Positions 62 through 54,259 of a stretch of 54,380 nucleotides of DNA are shown here, piece after piece. The position numbers were made by a program, and so were the translations under genes. This DNA is from a virus. A model generated the notes under the pieces. The model had not been told where the DNA came from. It worked only from the letters and a program-made list of their open reading frames with translations, and searched no databases. Within the stretch, counting starts at the first letter, position 1. Every line of letters begins with the position of its first letter. Location: IMG/VR virus record IMGVR_UViG_3300038479_000056, positions 1 to 54,380 of that record; one strand, written 5' to 3'.

Positions 62-1856
62 CCTCATCTTTAAATATAACGTGTGGTGGCCGGAGGGCGC
101 GTCTGCCCTTGAGATCGAGCGCGAGTGCATTCGGCAGGGAGGCCGCTGGACGGTCAAAGGCAAGGAGCGCGGGGCGGGGTTGTTCGAGCATTTCAAGGCT
201 TTTTTTGATTTGTGCTGGCCGGAAGATCATCACAACCGCTGGAGCGATTTAATCTTGAGCAATCTGGTCACAAACCGGTTGACGGTCGTGGCTGGGCCGA
301 AAAACAGTCAAAAAACGAGGACGGGGGCGAAGTGGGCGCTGACCAAGTATTGGGCTTCGCCGTCGGACACGCAGGTTTTGCTCACCAGCACCGACCGGCG
401 CGGATTGCAGCAACGCATTCTGGGCGACATCAAAAGTCTTTTCGAGCGGGCCAGGAGAATTCATTCGCAGTTAGAGGGAAATTTCGTAGAGGCGCACGAC
501 GCCATTTTTACCGACGCCCTTTCGACCGGGGAAGGAACAAGGGACTGGCGGCGCGGCATCATCGGCGTGCCCATCCTGAGCAGCACCGGGGATTTTCAAG
601 GGCTGGCCATCAAGAATTTTGCCGGGATTAAGCAGGAACATCGCGTTTTGCTGGCGGACGAGATTCAGTTCGTGCCCGTTGAATACTTGAAAGTTCTTGA
701 CAGTCTTGACGATGGCGATTTCGCCGCGTGTATGCTGCTCAACCCGATAGCGGGCAACGGCAAGGCCGGGGACATGGTCAGCGAACCCATCCACGGTTGG
801 GGTAGTATCGGTGAAGTGACTAAGACCACGACCTGGAAGAACAAGTATGGCGGCGTTACCGTGCAGTTGGTGGGGACGGACAGTCCCAATTTCGATATTC
901 CGCTGGTCCATTATTACAAGAATTTGATTGATCGCAAGATGGCCGACGCGGTGGCGAGCCGTCCCGGAGGGAAGGACAGCCGGGAATGGTGGAGTCTCAT
1001 CATGGGCGTGCGCAAGAGCGGCGTGTTGGATTATCGAGTGCTGACGGTGGAGTTGGTTGAGAGCAATCACGGGTTTGACGATTGCAAATGGGAGATGGAA
1101 CCGGAGATCAAGGTCATCGGGATAGACGCCGGGTTCGGGGGCGATCCGTGCATTCTGACCTGGGCCATGTGCGGCAAGGAAGTGGGCAAGGGTCAGGTGA
1201 TGCGGTTTGGGGATCAGGAAGAAATTCCGATTGTGATCAGCCCGGCTTTGACCCCGGAAAAACAAATTGCGCTTTACGTCAAGAAACGGTGCGATGAACT
1301 GGGCGTGGCGCCGGAAGGAGTGTTCGCCGAATGCGGTATGCGGGCCACACTGATGCAGGAAATGGCGCTGATAGTCGGTGTGGGTGTCAACGCGGTCAAC
1401 GCGGGCGGGCCGGCCACACAAAGGCCGGTTCACAACGAATTTTACATTGACGATGAAAAGACAGGTCAAAAACGGCTCAAGACCTGTTACGAGCATTACA
1501 GCAAATTCGTCACCGAATTAAGTTTCACCGTGCGGGAATTGGTCATTGGCGGGCAGGCGCGGAAATTCCCCATTGGAGCGGCGGAAGAATTCGAGCAGAG
1601 AGAATCCCGGGACGTGTACAACAACCGGATTGAGCTTGAGACCAAGCGGGAATACAAAGAGCGCATGGGCGCGGGCAGCCCGAATTTATCGGACTCGGCA
1701 GCTATAACGGTGGAGGGCGCGCGCCGGATGGGGTTTGTGTTGGAACGGGTCAGCGACGGGACGGGCCAGGGTAAGGCCCCGGAGCGGGACTGGCTGGGGG
1801 ACGCCGCGGACGAACAGGAAAAACTCGAATCAGAACGCGAATTGATCTACGATTAG
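54..1856 (+). CDS. terL: Terminase large subunit (packaging ATPase-nuclease)
   Basis: This is the motor that cuts the genome and drives it into the prohead through the portal. The N-terminal ATPase half has a Walker A-like GPKNSQKT at residues 81-88, where Gln replaces the usual last Gly, and a clear Walker B RVLLADEIQ at 197-205. The C-terminal half has the RNase H-like nuclease pattern: GIDAGFGGDP near 356, FAECG near 430 and a late acidic SPNLSDSA. Length (600 aa) fits the family. The GTG at 54 overlaps the end of an upstream gene. The frame is also open to the window edge, so a start farther upstream cannot be excluded. In the version joined to the right end, a TTG at 54249 after AGGGAGGGG could serve as start. 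Head genes follow on the same strand. Confidence 0.9.
   Translation: MPDLIFKYNVWWPEGASALEIERECIRQGGRWTVKGKERGAGLFEHFKAFFDLCWPEDHHNRWSDLILSNLVTNRLTVVAGPKNSQKTRTGAKWALTKYWASPSDTQVLLTSTDRRGLQQRILGDIKSLFERARRIHSQLEGNFVEAHDAIFTDALSTGEGTRDWRRGIIGVPILSSTGDFQGLAIKNFAGIKQEHRVLLADEIQFVPVEYLKVLDSLDDGDFAACMLLNPIAGNGKAGDMVSEPIHGWGSIGEVTKTTTWKNKYGGVTVQLVGTDSPNFDIPLVHYYKNLIDRKMADAVASRPGGKDSREWWSLIMGVRKSGVLDYRVLTVELVESNHGFDDCKWEMEPEIKVIGIDAGFGGDPCILTWAMCGKEVGKGQVMRFGDQEEIPIVISPALTPEKQIALYVKKRCDELGVAPEGVFAECGMRATLMQEMALIVGVGVNAVNAGGPATQRPVHNEFYIDDEKTGQKRLKTCYEHYSKFVTELSFTVRELVIGGQARKFPIGAAEEFEQRESRDVYNNRIELETKREYKERMGAGSPNLSDSAAITVEGARRMGFVLERVSDGTGQGKAPERDWLGDAADEQEKLESERELIYD
68..194. repeat. Left copy of 127-bp terminal repeat
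   Basis: Bases 68-194 are identical to 54254-54380. A length of exactly 127 is a common assembler k-mer, so this is most simply the overlap that closes the contig into a circle rather than a biological terminal repeat. The copy lies inside terL. Confidence 0.85.
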
Positions 1857-1862
1857 CTGACT

Positions 1863-2516
1863 ATGAATAGAAACGAAACTCCTCCGGGCGGATTTCAATT
1901 CCATCAAGCGCAATCGGGCTGGTCCGCGCCAACACCAGTGGCCAGCACCTTTAACCAGACCGTTGAACTGATCATCCAGCATCGCCGGGCTAATCCGGCC
2001 ATGACCGCGCAGCACAAGCTCAGTCTGGACCCTGGCGCGGTCGGCACCGAGCTTGAGTCTTACACGGCGCGGAGATTGGGCCTGCCGGACCCAAAACCGG
2101 CTCCGGCACCGCCAACACGGCAGTCGATGTCGGGCAAGGTTGTTCAAGCTGTGGCAGACGTTAAAAAGCTGGCGGCGGGCGCGGCAGTCCTTTTTGAGTG
2201 GCAACAATCCGGCGACCCGCCAGTGGATCAGGAAGTGGCTAATCAGCGAGCAGTGATTTGTGCGACTTGTCCCAAGAATGAGGCAGCGGGATTCTCGCGT
2301 TATTTCACTGCGCCGGTGCAAGCTATCATTATGAAGCAGTTCGAGCGGTTGCATAAAATGAATCTAAAAACGCCTAGTGACGATAAGTTAAATGTTTGCC
2401 AGGCGTGTATCTGCCCGCTCAGGGGCAAGGTATGGGTTCCGTTGTCGTTGATTTTAAAACGGCTAAAACCGGAAGAACGCGCGGAGCTTGATCCTCGTTG
2501 CTGGATCACGAAATAG
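1863..2516 (+). CDS. Cysteine-rich hypothetical protein (zinc-ribbon-like)
   Basis: Function not recognised. The 217-aa protein has a Pro/Ala-rich linker around residues 75-90 and a C-terminal set of cysteines (CATCPKN, then CQACICPLRGK, then DPRCW) that looks like a treble-clef or zinc-ribbon site. It starts 7 bases after terL, and its stop touches the start of the next gene, so all three are probably co-transcribed. Similar Cys-rich proteins sit next to packaging genes in other phages, but the role is unknown. Confidence 0.7.
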   Translation: MNRNETPPGGFQFHQAQSGWSAPTPVASTFNQTVELIIQHRRANPAMTAQHKLSLDPGAVGTELESYTARRLGLPDPKPAPAPPTRQSMSGKVVQAVADVKKLAAGAAVLFEWQQSGDPPVDQEVANQRAVICATCPKNEAAGFSRYFTAPVQAIIMKQFERLHKMNLKTPSDDKLNVCQACICPLRGKVWVPLSLILKRLKPEERAELDPRCWITK

Positions 2517-2843
2517 ATGAGCGACAAGAAGAAATGGCCGCTGGAGCAGGCGAAAGCCGTGGCCGTTGAATTGCTTTCTTACTTGCACGGCTTTTGTGAG
2601 CGGGCGCAAATCGCGGGCAGCATCCGGCGCGGCAAGTCTCTGGTGGGAGATATTGAGATTCTTTACATCCCCAAGATGGAGATGCGGAAAACGGATATGT
2701 TTTCGGCCCATGAAGTTGACCTGGCTGAAATTAAGGAGGGAAACACACTGTTGGAAACATTTGCAAAGCGTGTCAGCGATGCAATTACAGTAAACAAAAT
2801 AAACCGATCATTGCCGTTGTTCCAAATGGTCAACGTCTCTTAA
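2517..2843 (+). CDS. Truncated polX/pol-beta-like nucleotidyltransferase
   Basis: Residues 33-49 carry the nucleotidyltransferase signature AGSIRRGK..VGDIEIL, matching the pol beta palm (GS motif followed by a D-x-E/D metal site, here D45 and E47). Full-length phage members are roughly 180-200 aa and continue into a second half with the third carboxylate. This one is 108 aa and ends in unrelated residues. It therefore looks C-terminally truncated, and activity is doubtful. The ATG directly follows the stop of the previous gene (TAGATG). The gene after it starts 5 bases downstream. Confidence 0.65.
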   Translation: MSDKKKWPLEQAKAVAVELLSYLHGFCERAQIAGSIRRGKSLVGDIEILYIPKMEMRKTDMFSAHEVDLAEIKEGNTLLETFAKRVSDAITVNKINRSLPLFQMVNVS

Positions 2844-2847
2844 TCTG

Positions 2848-3552
2848 ATGACCATTCTCTTGGCGTATATTTGCGTGACTGGTGGGCCAAAGACCCACGA
2901 ACTGGCCGCGCGATTCGTCGGGTCCTACTTAACTCACCCACCAGGAATTGAACACCAAACTGTGGTTGTCTGTAATGGCGGTCCACTTTCAACTGAAACG
3001 GCCCTGTTGTTCCTGCCGCTGGACGTAAAATTTTTTCCAAGGGAAAATGACGGCGGTTGGGATGTGAGCGGATTCCAAGATGTAGCCAAGAATTTCCAGT
3101 CAGATATGCAGGTAAATTTTGGTGAGAGTTGCTACCTGCACCGCCCCGGCTGGCTTCGGCAGCTTGCTCAAGCGTGGTCTGTTTTTGGCCCTGGGTTCTA
3201 TGGCGTGTTCTCAAGTCATGCCGTTCGCGCTCACCTGAACACGAACGCTTTTATGTGCGCGCCGAAGCACTTGACTGAATATCCAGCGGTGCGGACGCAT
3301 CGTGAGCGCTATGAGTTCGAGCACGGGCCGGACGCGCTGTGGCGGCGGCTGGACAGGAAAGGGGTGCCGGTGCGGTTGGTGACCTGGGACGGGACCTGGG
3401 CCAAGGGCGACTGGCGCAAGCCGGCCAACATCCTGTCCCGTGGCACGCAGGAAAATTCCCTCGTATTTTGCATTCATAACGAGAGATACTGGGCTGCTGA
3501 TCCGGCGACGAAGCGGAAATGGGCCAGTTACAGCGATGCGCCTTTCCATTGA
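2848..3552 (+). CDS. Putative glycosyltransferase-like protein
   Basis: A 234-aa protein with the feel of a GT-A type sugar transferase: an N-terminal hydrophobic strand (TILLAYICVTGG), a second strand ending VVVCNGG, and the segment FFPRENDGGWDVSG, which could hold the nucleotide-sugar and metal site. It is the first of three glycosyltransferase-like genes (others at 5917 and 6597), suggesting modification of virion or host glycans. The stop codon TGA lies inside the right-end sequence of the neighbouring TnpB element, so the insertion may have trimmed the natural C-terminus. Family assignment is tentative. Confidence 0.5.
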   Translation: MTILLAYICVTGGPKTHELAARFVGSYLTHPPGIEHQTVVVCNGGPLSTETALLFLPLDVKFFPRENDGGWDVSGFQDVAKNFQSDMQVNFGESCYLHRPGWLRQLAQAWSVFGPGFYGVFSSHAVRAHLNTNAFMCAPKHLTEYPAVRTHRERYEFEHGPDALWRRLDRKGVPVRLVTWDGTWAKGDWRKPANILSRGTQENSLVFCIHNERYWAADPATKRKWASYSDAPFH

Positions 3553-4800
3553 CATCCTCCCCGGCCTGAAGGCGCGGGGATTCCTTGAATACAAATATGC
3601 TAGACATTTGCAGAGCTAGGTTGGTTGACACTTCGACGAGCATGGCGCGCCGAGGCCGAAGCCTTGGCGTGACTGATATGCTCTCCATGTCCTTTAACCG
3701 GCTGTCCACCGGCAAATTGAAGAATGTTTTTCGCGGCATTCTGATCTCTGTCCAAATGCTCGCCGCAGTTTTCGCATTTGAACTCGCGCACTTCCAAACC
3801 AAGGCTGCTGTGTATGTATCCGCAGGAATTGCACCGCCTGCTGCTTGGGAAGAATCTGTCTGCTACGCGCAACTCGCGGCCATACCAGGCACACTTGTAA
3901 GTCAGCATCGAACGGAACTGCCCAAAGCTGGCGCAACTGATATGCTTTGCGAGTTTGTGGTTCTTGACCATGCCGCGCACGTTCAAGTCCTCGATGGCCA
4001 GAACATCGAACCGGCGCACCAAATCTGTGGTGAGCTTGTCCAGTGTGTCCTTCCGGCAGTTGGCGATCTTGGCGTGCAAACGAGCCACTTTCAACCGCTG
4101 CTGATTCCAACGGCCACTGCCCTTGATGCGACGGGCGAGAACCCGTTGCAATCTCGCCAGCCTTGCGGCGTGGCGGGCAGTGTGGCGTGGGTTTGCCATC
4201 CGCTCGCCGTTACTCAAGGTTGCGAGCCGACTGATTCCAAGGTCAATCCCGACCATGCTTCCTGTCTTTGGGAGCGCGGCCTTGGCTGGTTCGTCCAGAC
4301 AAAGACTCACGAAATAGCGTCCATCCCTGCCCTTGGTTATCGTGCAGGTAGTAGGCTCGCTCGCGAAACCGCGACTCCATTTGACATGAAGCCGACCGAC
4401 TTTGGAAATTGTGAGGTTGCGGTTTGCCGCATCCCATTTGAAACCGCCAGAATGGTATTCGGCGGATTGCTTGTCGTGCTTGGAAGCAAACCTTGGATAG
4501 GCTGTCCGCTTGGCAAAGAAATTGGAGAACGCAGTTTGCAAGTGCCGCAATGCCTGCTGCTGTGGGATGCTGGACGATTCACGCAGAAAAGCAAACTCGC
4601 CGGTATTACGATGTTTAGTCCAAGCCGCGCTGCTGGCGTTGTAATTGACCGGCTTGCCGTCTTTGAAGCTGTCCGTGCGGAGGCGCAAGGCAAAATTGTA
4701 GGCGTGCCTGACACAGCCGAACTCCCGCGCCAGTTGCCGCGCTTGGCGGTCTGTCGGGTAGCATCGGAATGTCATGCGAACTTTCACTTGCAAGAATCTA
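3549..4800 (-). mobile_element. IS200/IS605-type TnpB element 1 (no TnpA)
   Basis: The element is read on the minus strand. Its right end is the typical hairpin CCCCG..CTTCAGG..CGGGG followed by GGATGTCAA (bases 3549-3581), the classic end of IS605-group tnpB elements and the 3' part of the presumed guide RNA. The left end, near 4800-4890, could not be placed. No TTGAC is visible there, and a second right-end-like hairpin (4840-4880) complicates the boundary. There is no transposase gene, so mobility would need TnpA in trans. Confidence 0.7.
3600..4793 (-). CDS. tnpB: TnpB RNA-guided nuclease (copy 1)
   Basis: TnpB proteins use an RNA made from the element's right end to cut DNA beside a short target motif; they are the ancestors of Cas12. 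This 397-aa copy has the RuvC triad in place: GIDLGIS (D184), AIEDLN (E268) and DRDQNAAKNI (D348/D350). It also has an intact zinc finger, C321-x2-C324 and C340-x2-C343. The N-terminal CYPTDRQ motif is typical. The start is a TTG; GTG at 4787 or ATG at 4775 are alternatives. It belongs to a different subgroup from the other three TnpBs here (shorter wedge region, QPVKGHG tail). It is transcribed against the surrounding head genes. Confidence 0.92.
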   Translation of the reverse strand: MQVKVRMTFRCYPTDRQARQLAREFGCVRHAYNFALRLRTDSFKDGKPVNYNASSAAWTKHRNTGEFAFLRESSSIPQQQALRHLQTAFSNFFAKRTAYPRFASKHDKQSAEYHSGGFKWDAANRNLTISKVGRLHVKWSRGFASEPTTCTITKGRDGRYFVSLCLDEPAKAALPKTGSMVGIDLGISRLATLSNGERMANPRHTARHAARLARLQRVLARRIKGSGRWNQQRLKVARLHAKIANCRKDTLDKLTTDLVRRFDVLAIEDLNVRGMVKNHKLAKHISCASFGQFRSMLTYKCAWYGRELRVADRFFPSSRRCNSCGYIHSSLGLEVREFKCENCGEHLDRDQNAAKNILQFAGGQPVKGHGEHISHAKASASARHARRSVNQPSSANV

Positions 4801-4839
4801 CTCCGTCTTGTAAGGTTTGTCCAATGCTAATTTCAACAA

Positions 4840-4882
4840 CTGAAAAAGCCGGGCTAAAGCCACGGGGTTTTCAACCCATAAG
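4840..4882 (-). repeat. Right-end-like hairpin relic beside TnpB element 1
   Basis: Read on the minus strand, TTGAAAACCCCG followed by TGGCTTTAGCCCGG resembles the right-end hairpins of the TnpB elements here (compare CCCCGTGCCTTTAGGCCGGGG of element 2). It lies upstream of tnpB copy 1, where a right end is not expected. It may be a solo end left by an earlier element, or part of an unusual left end. Confidence 0.35.
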
Positions 4883-4891
4883 GAATGGATA

Positions 4892-5920
4892 ATGAACGAG
4901 CCTATCCACATCATCAGCCTTGGGGCTGGAGTTCAATCGTCAACCGATGCGCTCATGGTTTCAGAGGGTGAACGCGGCCCTATGGTGTTGTGTGCGATCT
5001 GTGCAGACACCAAAAGAGAGCCTGGCAGCGTGTATTTGTGGCTCGCTAAACTTTGCGGGTGCGTTGTTCAGTTTCACGCAGACGGCAGGCCGTTTGTTGA
5101 ACCTGGAATTTATTCATCCGGGATGCTCAAGTTTCCGGTTCACATCGTAACTGCCGGGGATATTGTAGAGGATGCCCTGCGCGTCCGGCAACGGCTCGAT
5201 GGCAAAGGTTCATGGGTGCCTAGTGGCGTGCCTCATTATTCGATTAACGCGGACGGAACGCACGGCCACGGGCCAAGGCAATGCACGCATGATTTCAAAA
5301 TAGTTCCCATCGAAAGAGAATTGCGCCGCTTGATCGGGCGAGAGAAAATGTCGGCATGGAGGAAAGTTCACAAAACCGCCCTCAAAGAGATTTCAAAATA
5401 TCAGAAAGCCTTGGCCATTTGGAAACGCAATAGGAAACTAGACCCACTGCTTTTGCCTCCGACGTTTCCAAGTCGTGAATTCGATGAGTGCCAAGCTGAC
5501 CCGTTAGCTATACAGCGCATTGGCATCAGCACCGATGAGGCGTCCAGAGCGAAACCTTCGCGTGTTCCTTACTTGGTTCATATCTGGCCCCACCTTGACC
5601 ACGGCACAAATAGGGATGGCTGCATTGAATGGCTGGCGAAGCGTGGATTGGAAGCTCCTAAATCCGCCTGCGAATTTTGCCCCTACCATGATGACGATGA
5701 ATGGATTTGGTTGCGGGACATGGAGCCGGAAAGTTTTGAGAGGGCGGTAAAATTTGATTACGCTTACCGAGCCGCCAAAATACAGACGGTTTCAATCAAA
5801 GGCTTTGAACCCTTCATCCACCCCAGCCGACTGCCCTTGGACAAAGTCAAATTCAAAAAGTCGCACGGCAAACAACTAACCATGTTTAACAACGAGTGCG
5901 AAGGGATGTGCGGGGTATGA
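4892..5920 (+). CDS. PAPS reductase-like PP-loop ATPase
   Basis: Member of the adenine-nucleotide alpha-hydrolase (PP-loop) superfamily that includes PAPS reductases and DndC. The N-terminus has the loop SLGAGVQSSTDALM at residues 9-22, then CADTKREP, then the arginine-bearing RQCTHDFKI near 130, and a late CEFCPYHDDDEW with paired cysteines. Such proteins are common in phages, often as PAPS reductase-like proteins of unknown substrate. Roles in base modification or sulfur transfer are possible but not shown. AAGGAATGG gives a good ribosome site for the ATG. The end overlaps the next gene by 4 bases. Confidence 0.8.
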   Translation: MNEPIHIISLGAGVQSSTDALMVSEGERGPMVLCAICADTKREPGSVYLWLAKLCGCVVQFHADGRPFVEPGIYSSGMLKFPVHIVTAGDIVEDALRVRQRLDGKGSWVPSGVPHYSINADGTHGHGPRQCTHDFKIVPIERELRRLIGREKMSAWRKVHKTALKEISKYQKALAIWKRNRKLDPLLLPPTFPSREFDECQADPLAIQRIGISTDEASRAKPSRVPYLVHIWPHLDHGTNRDGCIEWLAKRGLEAPKSACEFCPYHDDDEWIWLRDMEPESFERAVKFDYAYRAAKIQTVSIKGFEPFIHPSRLPLDKVKFKKSHGKQLTMFNNECEGMCGV

Positions 5921-15595: not shown

Positions 15596-15624
15596 TTGAC
15601 GAATCAAATCACCAGTTCTAAGTT
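15596..15624 (+). promoter_or_regulatory. Candidate promoter for the capsid gene
   Basis: TTGACG, 17-base spacer, TAAGTT, with an A-rich tract just upstream (15585-15593). The -10 is poor but the -35 and spacing are good, and a promoter is needed here because a terminator lies between the co-chaperonin gene and the capsid gene. A similar candidate (TTGACT, 17 bases, TAAGCT) lies before the minus-strand virion operon. Confidence 0.35.
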
Positions 15625-15631
15625 CGCATCA

Positions 15632-15875
15632 CAAAGTCCGCTGGTAGCAATACCTGGGCGGACAATGCCGAGTCCAATCTCGGAAGTCTGCGACGACTTC
15701 ATCTCGAAGCGCGGTTTCAGACAAATCCCAAAATGGCCGAGCAAGGATGCCGGCCAAAGCGGGCCGCAAACGCCGTAGCGGTTCGCCTTAAAATGCGGCC
15801 TGGGTTCCCAACTCAGGATGAGGGTTCGCTCCTCACGAACGGCATGTCCCAACGCAGAACGTGTGTCGTTGCGGT
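15632..15875 (+). other. Structured leader without a recognisable gene
   Basis: The stretch has no convincing coding frame but several hairpins: CCGAG/CTCGG (15668-15683), GAAGT/ACTTC (about 15681-15700), GGCC/GGCC near 15735-15755, and CCTG..CAGG and GAGG/CCTC around 15800-15835. It lies between a candidate promoter and the capsid gene. It may be a structured 5' leader, a second intron-like RNA, or a non-coding RNA. No known RNA family was recognised. Confidence 0.35.
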
Positions 15876-16083
15876 ATGTGCCGATTTCCGACCTGTCTGC
15901 AAAATTTAATTCCTGTTAAGAGAGAGAAGAAGCATATCGATTGCCGAGCGTTTAGTGATATTTTGAGCCGCCGCGCGGAACATTTGGATTCCGAAATTAT
16001 CGTTGACCTTCATCCCCAAGACGGTTGGATTGGGCATGTGGCGACCGGCAAATTTCCCGCTGAACAAGGCGTTCAGCACACCT
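15876..16083 (+). CDS. Major capsid protein, exon 1
   Basis: This exon encodes the N-terminal part (AFSDILSRRAEHLDSEI, then DLHPQDGWIGHVATGKFPAEQGVQHT), which reads like the start of a capsid protein and ends abruptly at the 5' splice site of a group I intron. Joined to exon 2 it gives QHT-F-DRFNQVWPDLSS without loss of frame. The start codon is uncertain. ATG 15876 and GTG 15861 are in frame but lack a good ribosome site. An AAGAGAGAGAAG stretch at 15918-15929 looks like a ribosome site but no standard start follows. The spliced gene would encode 553 aa from ATG 15876. Confidence 0.6.
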
Positions 16084-16355
16084 TAACGTAAGTCAGGGGT
16101 GCTTTTTGCGAGTAACGAACAAAATCGCAAGATGAAAAATCCAGGAAAATCGGTGAACGCTAAAGCCAATGGCCAAGCCAATACCGAGGCGAGCCGGGAC
16201 AACCCGGAAGCCGTAACGAGTCAGTGTGGCAGAGCGAGAGCCTGCCGCCGCGCTGGAAGCCGAATTACAGGCTAAGATGGACTCTGACCCTGCTGGAAAC
16301 AGCAGGAGCTTGGCAGAAATGACCAAGCCGCTCCGGGTGGAGTAGTAACAAATTG
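16084..16355 (+). ncRNA. Group I self-splicing intron in the capsid gene
   Basis: P1 pairs exon end CACCU (16079-16083) with GGGUG (16097-16101), with the required U-G at the splice site. P10 pairs exon 2 UUGAC (16356-16360) with GUCAG (16092-16096), directly next to P1. Other helices: P2 UUGCGA/UCGCAA (16106-16130), P3 CAGG/CCUG, P4 UCGGU/ACCGA, P5 GCU/AGC with GCC/GGC, P6 CCGGG/CCCGG, P7 CAGAG/CUCUG, P8 AGCC/GGCU, P9 CCUGCUG-GAAA-CAGCAGG and P9.1 GCUUGG/CCAAGC. The layout resembles small tRNA-type bacterial introns such as Azoarcus. The last base is G, as required. No homing endonuclease gene is inside. In the unspliced RNA, TAG TAA blocks the capsid frame. Confidence 0.85.
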
Positions 16356-17809
16356 TTGACCGTTTCAACCAGGTCTGGCCTGATTTGAGTTCGCCGTGGA
16401 CGCCGATTACGACGCAGGGTTGTGTCGGGAACCCGTGCGATCCGCCGTTGACCAAGATCGGGATGGGGTTCACGCGGTACAGCTACCAATTGTTCCAGAG
16501 GACGTATGGGACGGACCTGTTTTGTTTCCCGCAGATATTGAGTGCGGACCGGGCCAAGGAACAATTCGCGCACGTCGTCGAGACATTGCGCCGTAGCACG
16601 AGCATCATCCACAGTCATCGCGCGCGGTTGCAGGCGTTGCAATGGGCCGGGCAACAGTGGAGTTGTGCCGCTAACGGTTTGCAACCGATTGGCCAACTGG
16701 GCGTGGCGGCGGGTTATTGGGACCCGACGCAGACCGTATACAATTTGCCGACGTTGCCCACGAGCAAGATCACGGCGAAACATTTGATGCGCCGGGTGCA
16801 TCCGCAGATATTGTTGGGGGCATTGCGGAGGAAGATCGTTGGGAACAAGTATCAGAGCGATTCCAAAGACTACGGGAGCCAGCCGATGTTGGAATTCGCG
16901 TATGACATGGAAGGGATTTGGGAAATTACGGAGGGCAACCCGGAACTGACCGATCATTGGCGGTACAGTGAGTTTAACAGCACCGACGCCAAGGCGTATT
17001 ACAAGTACGGCTGGCAGGGGAGCGTGGGCAATTACGGGATTCGGCCCGATGTCATGCCGTTGCGGTTCACGAACCTGCAAACGCAGAACGCGGACGGGAC
17101 GCATCAGTTGCAACTCATTTTCCCCTATACCAACGTCAACGCGACCGAGGGCATCAAGGAACAGCCGCAGCAGATTTATCAGGATGCGCCCATTCAGGTG
17201 AACTTCATCTGGCACCGGATGGTGATGATCAAGCTGACGCGGGAGAGCACCAGCATCAATCCCGAAATGCCGTTTGCCATGTTGGATTTTGGCGGCAAAT
17301 GGATGTTCGCGATGAATAACCTGGGTGATTGCCTGCAAAGCGACGGCCTCTATCACGCCATCGACAATTCCTGGGGCAACAAGGGCCGGTTCCAAAGCTG
17401 GTTCAGCGACGCTTACAAGGTGGAATATCCCGAATTGGCGGAAGTGTTCTGGTGCCTGCGCGAACCGGCCTGCATCGTGGACTCGCCCCGGTGCGCTCCT
17501 GACCCTGGCTACCCTGCCGTCAGCTATGCCAGCGCCAACGCGCCTTGCGCGCCGTCGCCTATCGTCATTACCGAGTTGCCAGTGCTCAATCCGGGGACTT
17601 CAACCTACGAAATTGCGATGAACACAATCACTTGCAATGGCTTGCAGGTGGTTCATGCGCCAATTACTGGGACGGCTACGCTGGCGGCTCTTGTCGCTCA
17701 GATGAACACCGTGCTCTCGGCCCTCGGGACATGGGCGGTGTCGGGTGCGAACATCACGTTGACCACTTCGGCTTGCGCCAATATCGGCTTGCCGTTCACG
17801 GTAACATAA
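16356..17809 (+). CDS. Major capsid protein, exon 2
   Basis: This is the bulk of the capsid protein: FDRFNQVWPDLSSPWTPI at the junction, a long HK97-type-like body (YSYQLFQRTYGTDLFCFP, PQILLGALRRKI, YDMEGIWEITEGNPEL, MLDFGGKWMFAMNNLGD), and a C-terminal beta-rich domain after about residue 390 (VITELPVLNPGTSTYEI to FTVT) that may be an added surface domain. Position after scaffold and co-chaperonin, length and composition support capsid identity. A plain reading would start at TTG 16385, which drops the first residues of this exon; the intron explains the missing start. Confidence 0.75.
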
Positions 17810-45358: not shown

Positions 45359-46553
45359 CAAACTGTGTTTTATTTTCTGTATTTGAATAATGACAGTGAC
45401 GGTCCAATTGAAACTGATGCCCGATGCGGCGACCGCCGCATCGATGGAGGCCACTTTGCGGGCGTGCAACGGGGCGGCTGACTGGCTTTCGGAGCGCGCC
45501 TGGGGCAACCGGAAATTCGGGCAGTTCGCTTTGCAATCCGCTTTCTACAAGGACATTCGGGCAATGTTTAACATCGGGGCGCAGGCATCCTGCTTGATCT
45601 GCGCTAAAGTGGCCGATGCCTACAAACTCGACACCGAAACGCAGCGGACCTTCCGACCTTTGGGCAGCATCGCCTACGATGTCCGTAATTTGAAAATTCA
45701 CATTGAGAAGCGCGTGGCCTCGATCTGGACCATTGACGCTCGGTGCAAGGTTCCATTTCAGTGCGGCGATTACCAGGTTGATCTGCTCCGCAAAGGTCTG
45801 ATAAAGCAATCCGACCTCGTGCGCCGCCGGGATGGCCGATGGTTCCTGATGGTTTCTGTGACGCTTCCAGACACCGAGGAGTTGAAAGTGACCGACATTT
45901 TGGGCGTGGACCTGGGCATCGCTGTCATAGCCGCCGATTCGGACGGCAACAAATACTCCGGCTCCAAGTTGAATAAAATCCGGCACAGGAACAAATCGTT
46001 GCGCCGGAAGTTGCAGCGCAAAGGGACCAAGTCGGCCAAGCGGCTGTTGAAAAAGAGGAGCGCAAAAGAGGCTCGCTTCGCCCGTGACTGCAATCATGTT
46101 ATTTCCAAGAAGCTCGTATCGCTGGCTAAACGCACCAACCGCGCCATTGCACTCGAAGAACTCGACGGCATTGGCCGGAGGATAAGGGTTAGAAAAAGTC
46201 AGCGATACGGGTTGCATAGCTGGGCTTTCGCGCAACTGGGCCAGTTCACCCGTTACAAGGCCGCGATAGCAGGAGTGCCGGTGATCTTCATTGACCCGCA
46301 CTATACATCCCAGCGATGCAGCCAATGCGGCCACACCTCCAGAGCCAACCGCAAAACGCGGTCGGAATTTCTCTGCCAGAAGTGCGGCCATGCGTCCCAT
46401 GCGGACACAAACGGTTCGCTGAACATTAGGGCCTTGGGCCTGGACGTTCTGCGAACGGGCGCTTTCATACGCCCATACGCGGAGGCCACTACCTATGCCA
46501 ACTGACATGGGCTTATCCATCTGCAATCCCGCCGTTCACGGTGGGTCTATGAA
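45359..46553 (+). mobile_element. TnpB element 3 (no TnpA)
   Basis: The left side is TTGAC (45354-45358). The right-end hairpin CCCGCC..GGTGGG (46528-46545) is followed by TCTATGAA. The element lies between two minus-strand operons and is transcribed against them, so it breaks no gene. An 11-base direct repeat (AAAACGAGGCT) follows the right end (46553-46578 region). Confidence 0.7.
45390..46505 (+). CDS. tnpB: TnpB RNA-guided nuclease (copy 3)
   Basis: The 371-aa TnpB has an intact RuvC triad, GVDLGIAV (D174), IALEELDG (E256/E257) and ADTNGSLNI (D339), and zinc finger C310-x2-C313, C329-x2-C332. It is clearly related to copy 4 (shared KVADAYKLD, TQRTFR, LHSWAFA and residue spacing). It differs in the N-terminal part and in its right-end hairpin. 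ATG 45390 lies 31 bases inside the left end. The presumed guide would match AACGAGGC.. outside the right end. Confidence 0.92.
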   Translation: MTVTVQLKLMPDAATAASMEATLRACNGAADWLSERAWGNRKFGQFALQSAFYKDIRAMFNIGAQASCLICAKVADAYKLDTETQRTFRPLGSIAYDVRNLKIHIEKRVASIWTIDARCKVPFQCGDYQVDLLRKGLIKQSDLVRRRDGRWFLMVSVTLPDTEELKVTDILGVDLGIAVIAADSDGNKYSGSKLNKIRHRNKSLRRKLQRKGTKSAKRLLKKRSAKEARFARDCNHVISKKLVSLAKRTNRAIALEELDGIGRRIRVRKSQRYGLHSWAFAQLGQFTRYKAAIAGVPVIFIDPHYTSQRCSQCGHTSRANRKTRSEFLCQKCGHASHADTNGSLNIRALGLDVLRTGAFIRPYAEATTYAN

Positions 46554-53101: not shown

Positions 53102-54253
53102 AAGCGAGTGAAGTTGACTGTTCAAGTGAAACTTTTGCCGACGCCAGAACAATCGAAGGCGTTGCGCGAAACTCTGGAGTTGGCGAATCAAGCGGCATGT
53201 CGTCTGTCGGAACTGTGCTGGGAAAAGAAGGAGTTTCGCCAGTTCCCAATGCACCGTTTGTTCTACAAACAGATTCGCAGTGAGTTCGATTTGTCCTCTC
53301 AGGTTGTTGTCCGCCTTAACTCCAAGGTTGCTGACGCCTACAAGCTGGACGAGAAGACGCAACGCACTTTTCGCAAGCACGGCAGCATTTCCTACGACGC
53401 TCGCATTCTTGATTTCCAACTTCCTGCCTCGACCGTGAGCATCTGGACTGTGAGAGGAAGGTTGAAACATATTCAGTTTGTCTGTGGCGAGCGCCAGCGT
53501 AAGCTGCTGGAACTTCCGAAAGGCGAGAGCGATTTGGTTCTGCGTGACCGCAAGTGGTATCTCAACGTGACCGTGGACGTGCCAGAGGAACGCGAACAGG
53601 AAGTTGTTGGCTGGCTTGGCATCGACCTTGGACTGGTGAACCTCGCGCAGAGTTCCGACGGGCAGACATTCGGTGACGCTCGCAAGACAGCCGGTATTCG
53701 CGCTCGGCGATGGCGGCAGAGAAAGCGACTTCAAAAGAAAGGCACGCGCAAGGCCAAGCGCATCCTGCACCGGCTCAGTGGACGGGAACAAAGATTTATG
53801 CGGGACGTGAATCACGTCGTCGCCAAACAGATTTGCGGTGTTGCTAAACGCACGAATCGAGGGATTGCCTTGGAAGATTTGAAAGGTATTCGTTCGAGGA
53901 TCAGGGCTAACCGAAAGCAACGCCGCATCCTGCACTCGTGGGCCTTCGCGGATCTCCAAGCGAAGATTGCCTACAAGGGCAGGCTTATCGGAGTGCCGGT
54001 CAAACTCGTTGACCCTCGCAACACCAGCCGGACTTGTCCGGCCTGCGGCAGTGTCAGTAAGAAGAACCGGCCCACACGCGATAAGTTCGCGTGCCAGTCG
54101 TGCGGGTTTACCGCCGATGCCGATACCAACGCAGCGGGAAACATTTCTCGCCGGGGTGCCTTCAATCACCCGCACGTAACGGAAATTAGTTGTGGCAAAA
54201 TCCATGACCGTATCCAGTTACAATCCCCATCCCTTCAGGGAGGGGTAATTGAA
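53079..54253 (+). mobile_element. TnpB element 4 abutting terL
   Basis: The left side is TTGAC (53074-53078). The palindrome 53079-53098 probably forms the left-end hairpin. The right end is CCCATCCCTTCAGGGAGGGG then TAATTGAA, ending at 54253. Base 54254 is exactly where the sequence becomes identical to base 68 in terL, so the boundary is supported independently. No TnpA. Confidence 0.8.
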
Positions 54254-54259
54254 CTTTAA
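53108..54259 (+). CDS. tnpB: TnpB RNA-guided nuclease (copy 4)
   Basis: The 383-aa TnpB has an intact RuvC triad, GIDLGLVN (D173), IALEDLKG (E256) and ADTNAAGNI (D339), and zinc finger C310-x2-C313, C329-x2-C332. Close relative of copy 3. The GTG at 53108 lies at the predicted transcription start, so translation may be leaderless or start later. The C-terminus (QSPSLQGGVIEL) is encoded by the right-end hairpin and the stop uses the first bases of terL (TTTAA). The presumed guide matches the first terL codons (CTTTAAATATAACGTG..), so terL genes without the element would be its target. Confidence 0.92.
   Translation: MKLTVQVKLLPTPEQSKALRETLELANQAACRLSELCWEKKEFRQFPMHRLFYKQIRSEFDLSSQVVVRLNSKVADAYKLDEKTQRTFRKHGSISYDARILDFQLPASTVSIWTVRGRLKHIQFVCGERQRKLLELPKGESDLVLRDRKWYLNVTVDVPEEREQEVVGWLGIDLGLVNLAQSSDGQTFGDARKTAGIRARRWRQRKRLQKKGTRKAKRILHRLSGREQRFMRDVNHVVAKQICGVAKRTNRGIALEDLKGIRSRIRANRKQRRILHSWAFADLQAKIAYKGRLIGVPVKLVDPRNTSRTCPACGSVSKKNRPTRDKFACQSCGFTADADTNAAGNISRRGAFNHPHVTEISCGKIHDRIQLQSPSLQGGVIEL

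Follow-up and report, generated by a model that had tools for sequence, protein, structure and literature searches.

A group I intron without an endonuclease gene interrupts the capsid gene of an uncultured phage

The window analyzed here, the whole 54,380-nt stretch of IMG/VR virus record IMGVR_UViG_3300038479_000056, carries a major capsid gene in two pieces: the upstream frame ends in ...GVQHT and reads into LT-stop shortly inside a 272-nt insert (16084-16355), and the downstream frame, which has no start codon, takes up again at 16358 with DRFNQVWPD. What is this insert, and how might one capsid protein be made across it? A sequence-only reading had proposed a group I intron, and its statements on the two frames are all correct. 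The insert contains no gene. We conclude that 16084-16355 is a group I intron interrupting the capsid gene; the full explanation, that a mobile-type, IA-like group I intron without an endonuclease gene, of a sort widespread among phages, is spliced out of the capsid RNA, is very probably the right one. The gene is arranged as follows:

15930 to 16083, + strand: capsid exon 1, KHIDCRAFSD...GVQHT plus the first base of F; 60% identity to L005/L006 over 50 aa (tblastn)
16084 to 16355, + strand: group I intron, ending in omega-G 16355; matched by the covariance model R1 described below across 16134-16320 (86.9 bits, E 2e-22) and missing in 37 relatives
16356 to 17809, + strand: capsid exon 2, TT plus DRFNQVWPD... 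to the stop; 46-64% identity to relatives

Joining 16083 to 16356 yields ...GVQHT-F-DRFNQ... and restores the frame exactly. Two joins could produce the F, and only 16083/16356 leaves G as the final intron base.

Relatives were collected by a terminase scan, which found related phages, two of them long enough to include the capsid gene, and then by capsid alignments, which brought in further loci. In both long relatives found through terminase the capsid gene is one open frame over exons 1 and 2, and in L005/L006 the tblastn match to exon 1 is contiguous with that to exon 2. Every locus that spans the site has an uninterrupted frame (37 of 37), 24 of them with HTF-DRF, and HT-F-DRF is nearly invariant among the close relatives. 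No other short stretch of the protein is as conserved as the one that holds the insertion, in which D, R and F are invariant. The splice product proposed from sequence, HT-F-DRF across 16083/16356, is thus exactly that of the uninterrupted relatives. The earlier reading had also named one observation that would speak against an intron, namely relatives that lack exon 1 and start at TTG 16385; this was examined and did not overturn the proposal, exon 1 being conserved in every close relative. As a separate observation, L004/G004 has, upstream of the capsid gene, another short gene that is similar to the capsid N-terminus and likewise contains HTFDRF (L008:6242-6544).

The following RNA elements were placed in the insert and its flanks:

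16079 to 16101, + strand: P1, CACCU (16079-16083) with GGGUG (16097-16101); its last pair, at the 5' splice site, is U-G
16092 to 16096, + strand: P10 guide, GUCAG pairing with UUGAC of the 3' exon (16356-16360)
16140 to 16257, + strand: P3, UCCAG (16140-16144) with CUGGA (16253-16257), from the MFE fold
16150 to 16187, + strand: P4, UCGGU (16150-16154) with ACCGA (16183-16187), enclosing P5 (16159-16178)
16188 to 16212, + strand: P6/P6a, GGC (16188-16190) with GCC (16210-16212) and CCGGG (16194-16198) with CCCGG (16203-16207)
16218 to 16284, + strand: P7, GAGUC (16218-16222) with GACUC (16280-16284); J8/7 AAGAU directly before the 3' strand
16228 to 16246, + strand: P7.1 hairpin, GGCAG/CUGCC between P7 and P3, IA-type-like, from the MFE fold
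16258 to 16273, + strand: P8, AGCC (16258-16261) with GGCU (16270-16273)
16289 to 16306, + strand: P9, CCUGCUG-GAAA-CAGCAGG
16308 to 16355, + strand: 3' domain, P9.1 GCUUGG/CCAAGC with loop CAGAAAUGA, P9.2 CUCC/GGAG, end GUAACAAAUUG

P1, P10, P4, P7, P9 with its GAAA loop, and the final G all lie where the sequence-only reading had drawn them; P2, P3, P5, P6/P6a, P7.1, P8, P9.1 and P9.2 could be placed in addition. The features by which group I introns are recognized are found together: a P4-P6 domain, a P3/P7 pseudoknot with P8, a guanosine-binding P7 with the conserved G16218-C16284 pair plus J8/7, a U-G P1 at the 5' splice site, P10, a terminal omega-G, and a host gene that is restored by excision and whose relatives carry the empty site. 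An extra hairpin between P7 and P3 (P7.1/P7.2), the mark of subgroup IA, is present as GGCAG/CUGCC at 16228-16246, and we provisionally assign the intron to subgroup IA, phage type. The MFE fold of the intron contains P1, P2, P4, P5, P6, P9 and P9.1, with P3 as UCCAG/CUGGA, and the folding energy of the intron with short flanks is -113.7 kcal/mol versus -89.1 +/- 4.5 for shuffles (z -5.4). P1 and P10 are formed through adjacent bases of one guide (16092-16101); given these exons, a P1 of at least 5 bp with U-G and an adjacent P10 of at least 5 bp occur together in 31 of 54,340 40-nt segments of the contig (about 6e-4 by chance).

The search with Rfam model RF00028 that had been suggested as a check was run and did not match the intron of the window, even at E<=10. 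Related introns score 48.3 (L012), 43.0 (Barba) and 40.4 bits (A9) with the same model, all below its gathering cut-off of 50, and we therefore attribute the miss to the sensitivity of the model and not to the intron; the gathering score is a database criterion and not a defining property of the ribozyme. An 18-base P4 pattern from the window's intron was used to gather at least 120 stretches from viral contigs, many of which bear a full group I core. From 22 aligned other phage introns, with the window excluded, covariance model R1 was built, and RNAalifold on the same 22 recovered P4, P5, P6, P7 and P9 with compensatory changes. In the window, R1 matches 16134-16320 at 86.9 bits (E 2.4e-22 for 363 kb searched), a score that is inflated in the P4 part because the training introns were selected with the window's own 18-base pattern; P6, P7, J8/7, P9 and the common 3' end are free of this bias. 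Elsewhere in the 54-kb window R1 finds nothing above noise, including with filters off around the capsid gene.

Compared with the common GACUA/UAGUC, the P7 of the window (GAGUC/GACUC) has two pairs changed, both compensated, and the conserved P7 G-C pair is present in 42 of 42 introns. Over these 42, 96.2% of the structure cells pair; the figure is 74% for shuffled sequences and does not exceed 39% in slid controls. The 3'-end motif makes a separate test, most of the 3' end lying outside R1: the motif GGCAGAAATGACC...GTAACAAATTG is present in 12 other viral contigs, and in nine of them an R1 match abuts it (the weakest with E 0.08). Matches to the intron by blastn against phages are weak, yet they lie in intron contexts (Barba, A511, A9). 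The identification as a group I intron is borne out by the covariance-model match, the compensatory P7 pairs, the P1/P10/omega-G arrangement, and the 3' domain held in common with the intron of phage A9.

We propose that the capsid RNA would fold so that the U-G pair of P1 defines the 5' splice site, free guanosine would attack after U16083, P10 would align the 3' splice site after omega-G 16355, and ligation of the exons would give ...GVQHT-F-DRFNQ... in a continuous capsid protein. We infer splicing in vivo, and its efficiency as well, from the DNA.

Other explanations can be offered for the split gene. It is very unlikely, though the least improbable of these, that the insert is a true group I intron by descent which has lost splicing, leaving a broken capsid or translation of the exon 2 frame alone, e.g. 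from TTG 16385. The relatives' ATG position has no start codon in the window, and the evidence is the DNA of a single metagenome contig; against this, the P7 G-C pair, J8/7, J4/5, P1, P10 and omega-G are all kept and both exons are open, with exon 2 46-64% identical to relatives and exon 1 conserved as described. That the ribosome would instead bypass the 272 bases, as in T4 gene 60, fits with the stop soon after exon 1 and with the structured insert; however, all parts of a group I core are found in the insert, and this core has homologues in introns of unrelated genes, while the established bypass crosses about 50 nt between take-off and landing codons that match, which makes this reading extremely improbable.

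The mechanical ORF listing, which offers TTG 16385 as a start, would permit a reading as two independent genes, the first for a short protein and the second for a capsid that starts inside exon 2. This carries scarcely any probability when both parts form one frame in all 37 site-spanning relatives and HT-F-DRF hardly varies among the close ones. An assembly chimera, in which the intron of another phage was placed in the contig, would be in keeping with a metagenome assembly whose ends are not simple, but in P1 and P10 the guide within the intron fits precisely the two exons that flank it, and both joins bring the frame back without a base too many or too few; we give it almost no credence. 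Splicing of a group I intron from the capsid RNA is the reading followed below.

The host gene had been called a capsid gene from sequence. By sequence the protein matches no PHROG or Pfam family. A first structure model, made from exon 2 of the window with 20 sequences, was poor (pLDDT 54) and was superseded by a model of L167, the nearest uninterrupted relative (64% identity), from an L167-led alignment of 30 sequences, which reached moderate confidence (pLDDT 62, pTM 0.54). The best Foldseek matches of this model in PDB are the capsids of phages N4, B2, DEV and Moo19, with N4 first and E down to 5e-6; the PDB list consists of tailed-phage capsids or heads only, and the viral library concurs. 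The gene also lies in a conserved neighborhood, with similar upstream genes in the relatives. The fold search, in which N4-type HK97-fold capsids rank first, together with the conserved position supports the modelled product as an HK97-fold major capsid protein, in agreement with the earlier call. A scan of bacterial genomes with the capsid for host assignment found no relatives.

The 5' end of the gene is less regular. Codon 15930 lines up with the start codon of the relatives (ATG; TTG in L020, GTG in L032) but is AAG in the window, where 15930-15938 is AAG CAT ATC behind an SD-like GAGAGAGAAG stretch; the in-frame NTG codons closest to it are ATG 15876 and GTG 15861. Translation may begin with an N-terminal extension at ATG 15876, or with ATC 15936 as a rare start codon; the AAG may also be a base error of the contig. 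It leaves the intron finding untouched, yet it bears on whether the assembled gene would work in full. Two features precede it:

15596 to 15624, + strand: promoter-like site for the capsid transcript, -35 TTGACG (15596-15601), 17-nt spacer, -10 TAAGTT (15619-15624), by consensus match only
15630 to 15929, + strand: capsid transcript, 5' leader of about 300 nt with high G+C and a structured look

Most relatives have TTGAC-N17-TAAAA-like sites in a comparable position ahead of the capsid gene. G+C-rich leaders of 150-300 nt with conserved patches precede most capsid genes of this phage group (window 15596-15929 and L012-L033), those of the relatives measuring 150-260 nt, and window 15755-15834 is 74% identical to the leader of L028. 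The capsid leaders are absent from Rfam and their alignment gave no consensus fold; they are possibly regulatory. A second intron in the 300-nt leader (15600-15930), suggested by the ATG-less exon 1, was considered and dropped, since R1 with filters off finds nothing there.

How the intron arrived is a further question. It may have come by homing, with the endonuclease encoded elsewhere or lost since. No homing endonuclease is present inside the 272-nt intron, and no such known domain was found among the Pfam-scanned proteins; with no room for an endonuclease in the intron and none recognized in the scanned proteins, the intron would be immobile alone or would move with outside help. The window does contain two TnpB-like genes (45390-46505 and 53108-54259, both +) with OrfB_IS605 and Cas12f1-like domains, 45% identical to each other and on the strand opposite to their neighbors. 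TnpB-guided homing was considered and rejected: the sequences after the apparent right ends (AACGAGGCTATCCC..., CTTTAAATATAACG...) are by eye unlike the capsid junction. Separately, the contig ends (68-194 and 54254-54380) have 127 bp in common; this stretch starts where the second TnpB element seems to have its right end, barely within the terminase gene, and suggests a closed genome with the element in part of the population only.

The sequence-only reading had stressed the lack of an endonuclease and the capsid host gene, and its novelty was overstated, since both endonuclease-free group I introns and capsid-gene introns of phages are already known. In mycobacteriophage LittleE (Cluster J) a group I-type capsid intron of about 819 bp includes a LAGLIDADG-type endonuclease gene, and its splicing was demonstrated by RT-PCR and N-terminal sequencing (PMC3706429). 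LittleE and the window are alike in the major capsid gene, the U before the 5' site, the G at the intron end and the intron-less relatives, whereas the intron described here is 272 nt, carries no gene and belongs to an unrelated uncultured phage group. Capsid-gene group I introns are also known from lactococcal phage Tuc2009 (cited in PMC3706429) and from Delta- and Zeta-group crAss-like phages (PMC7886860), in different phage lineages; the crAss-like introns, unlike that of the window, were recognized chiefly by their endonuclease domains, and one gene may hold several of them. Jug phages have abundant small group I introns (mean about 206 nt), with read-supported splicing in 37 of 76 (PMC12363816), and more than half of the viral group I introns are IA2 (PMC11835236). 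In L196, an 88-kb uncultured phage, six group I intron matches fall in 3.5 kb (852-4349) inside the major head protein gene, whose exons match phrog_9953; some of these introns have endonuclease-like reading frames, and the capsid gene is heavily split.

Outside capsid genes, the intron in the ribonucleotide reductase gene (nrd) of Brochothrix phage A9 (L010, NC_015253) is 78% identical to that of the window over the last 50 nt, the match stopping at the same final intron base, in a different host gene. The deposited A9 annotation lists the exons as separate genes, and the annotated ribonucleotide reductase CDS begins at the last three bases of the intron. The P4-P5-P6 core family of the window is also found in Rheinheimera Barba phages (L011; just upstream of terminase, R1 137 bits as a training member) and in Listeria phage A511 (L034; between two DNA polymerase reading frames, R1 63 bits), which differ from the window in host gene and, in some, by longer inserts between P7 and P3.

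The closest case is L012 (IMGVR_UViG_3300047322_000616), in which a group I intron (4560-4894; RF00028 E 1.5e-9) interrupts a capsid gene of the same family (61% identity). It belongs to the same intron family, has no intron-contained gene that we could see, and lies further upstream in exon 1 than that of the window, between ...LSRRS and HLDDE...; no U of the expected kind can be made out ahead of its 5' splice site, and its ends are approximate. With two phages and two sites, one might suppose that endonuclease-free group I introns, possibly spread by a trans-acting endonuclease, have repeatedly targeted the capsid gene in this uncultured phage group, and that the introns serve co-infection competition or tune late expression and are not passive; we consider this unlikely.

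The intron of the window is a new case of a kind already known, the capsid-gene group I intron of phages. Such introns are missed by the standard Rfam model and by ORF callers, and the capsid gene here would otherwise receive a truncated annotation and a wrong start; the R1 covariance model and the 3'-end motif detect further introns of this sort. The finding provides a well-supported example of an intron in a gene that is essential and highly expressed, from a phage group whose proteins are mostly without a family match.
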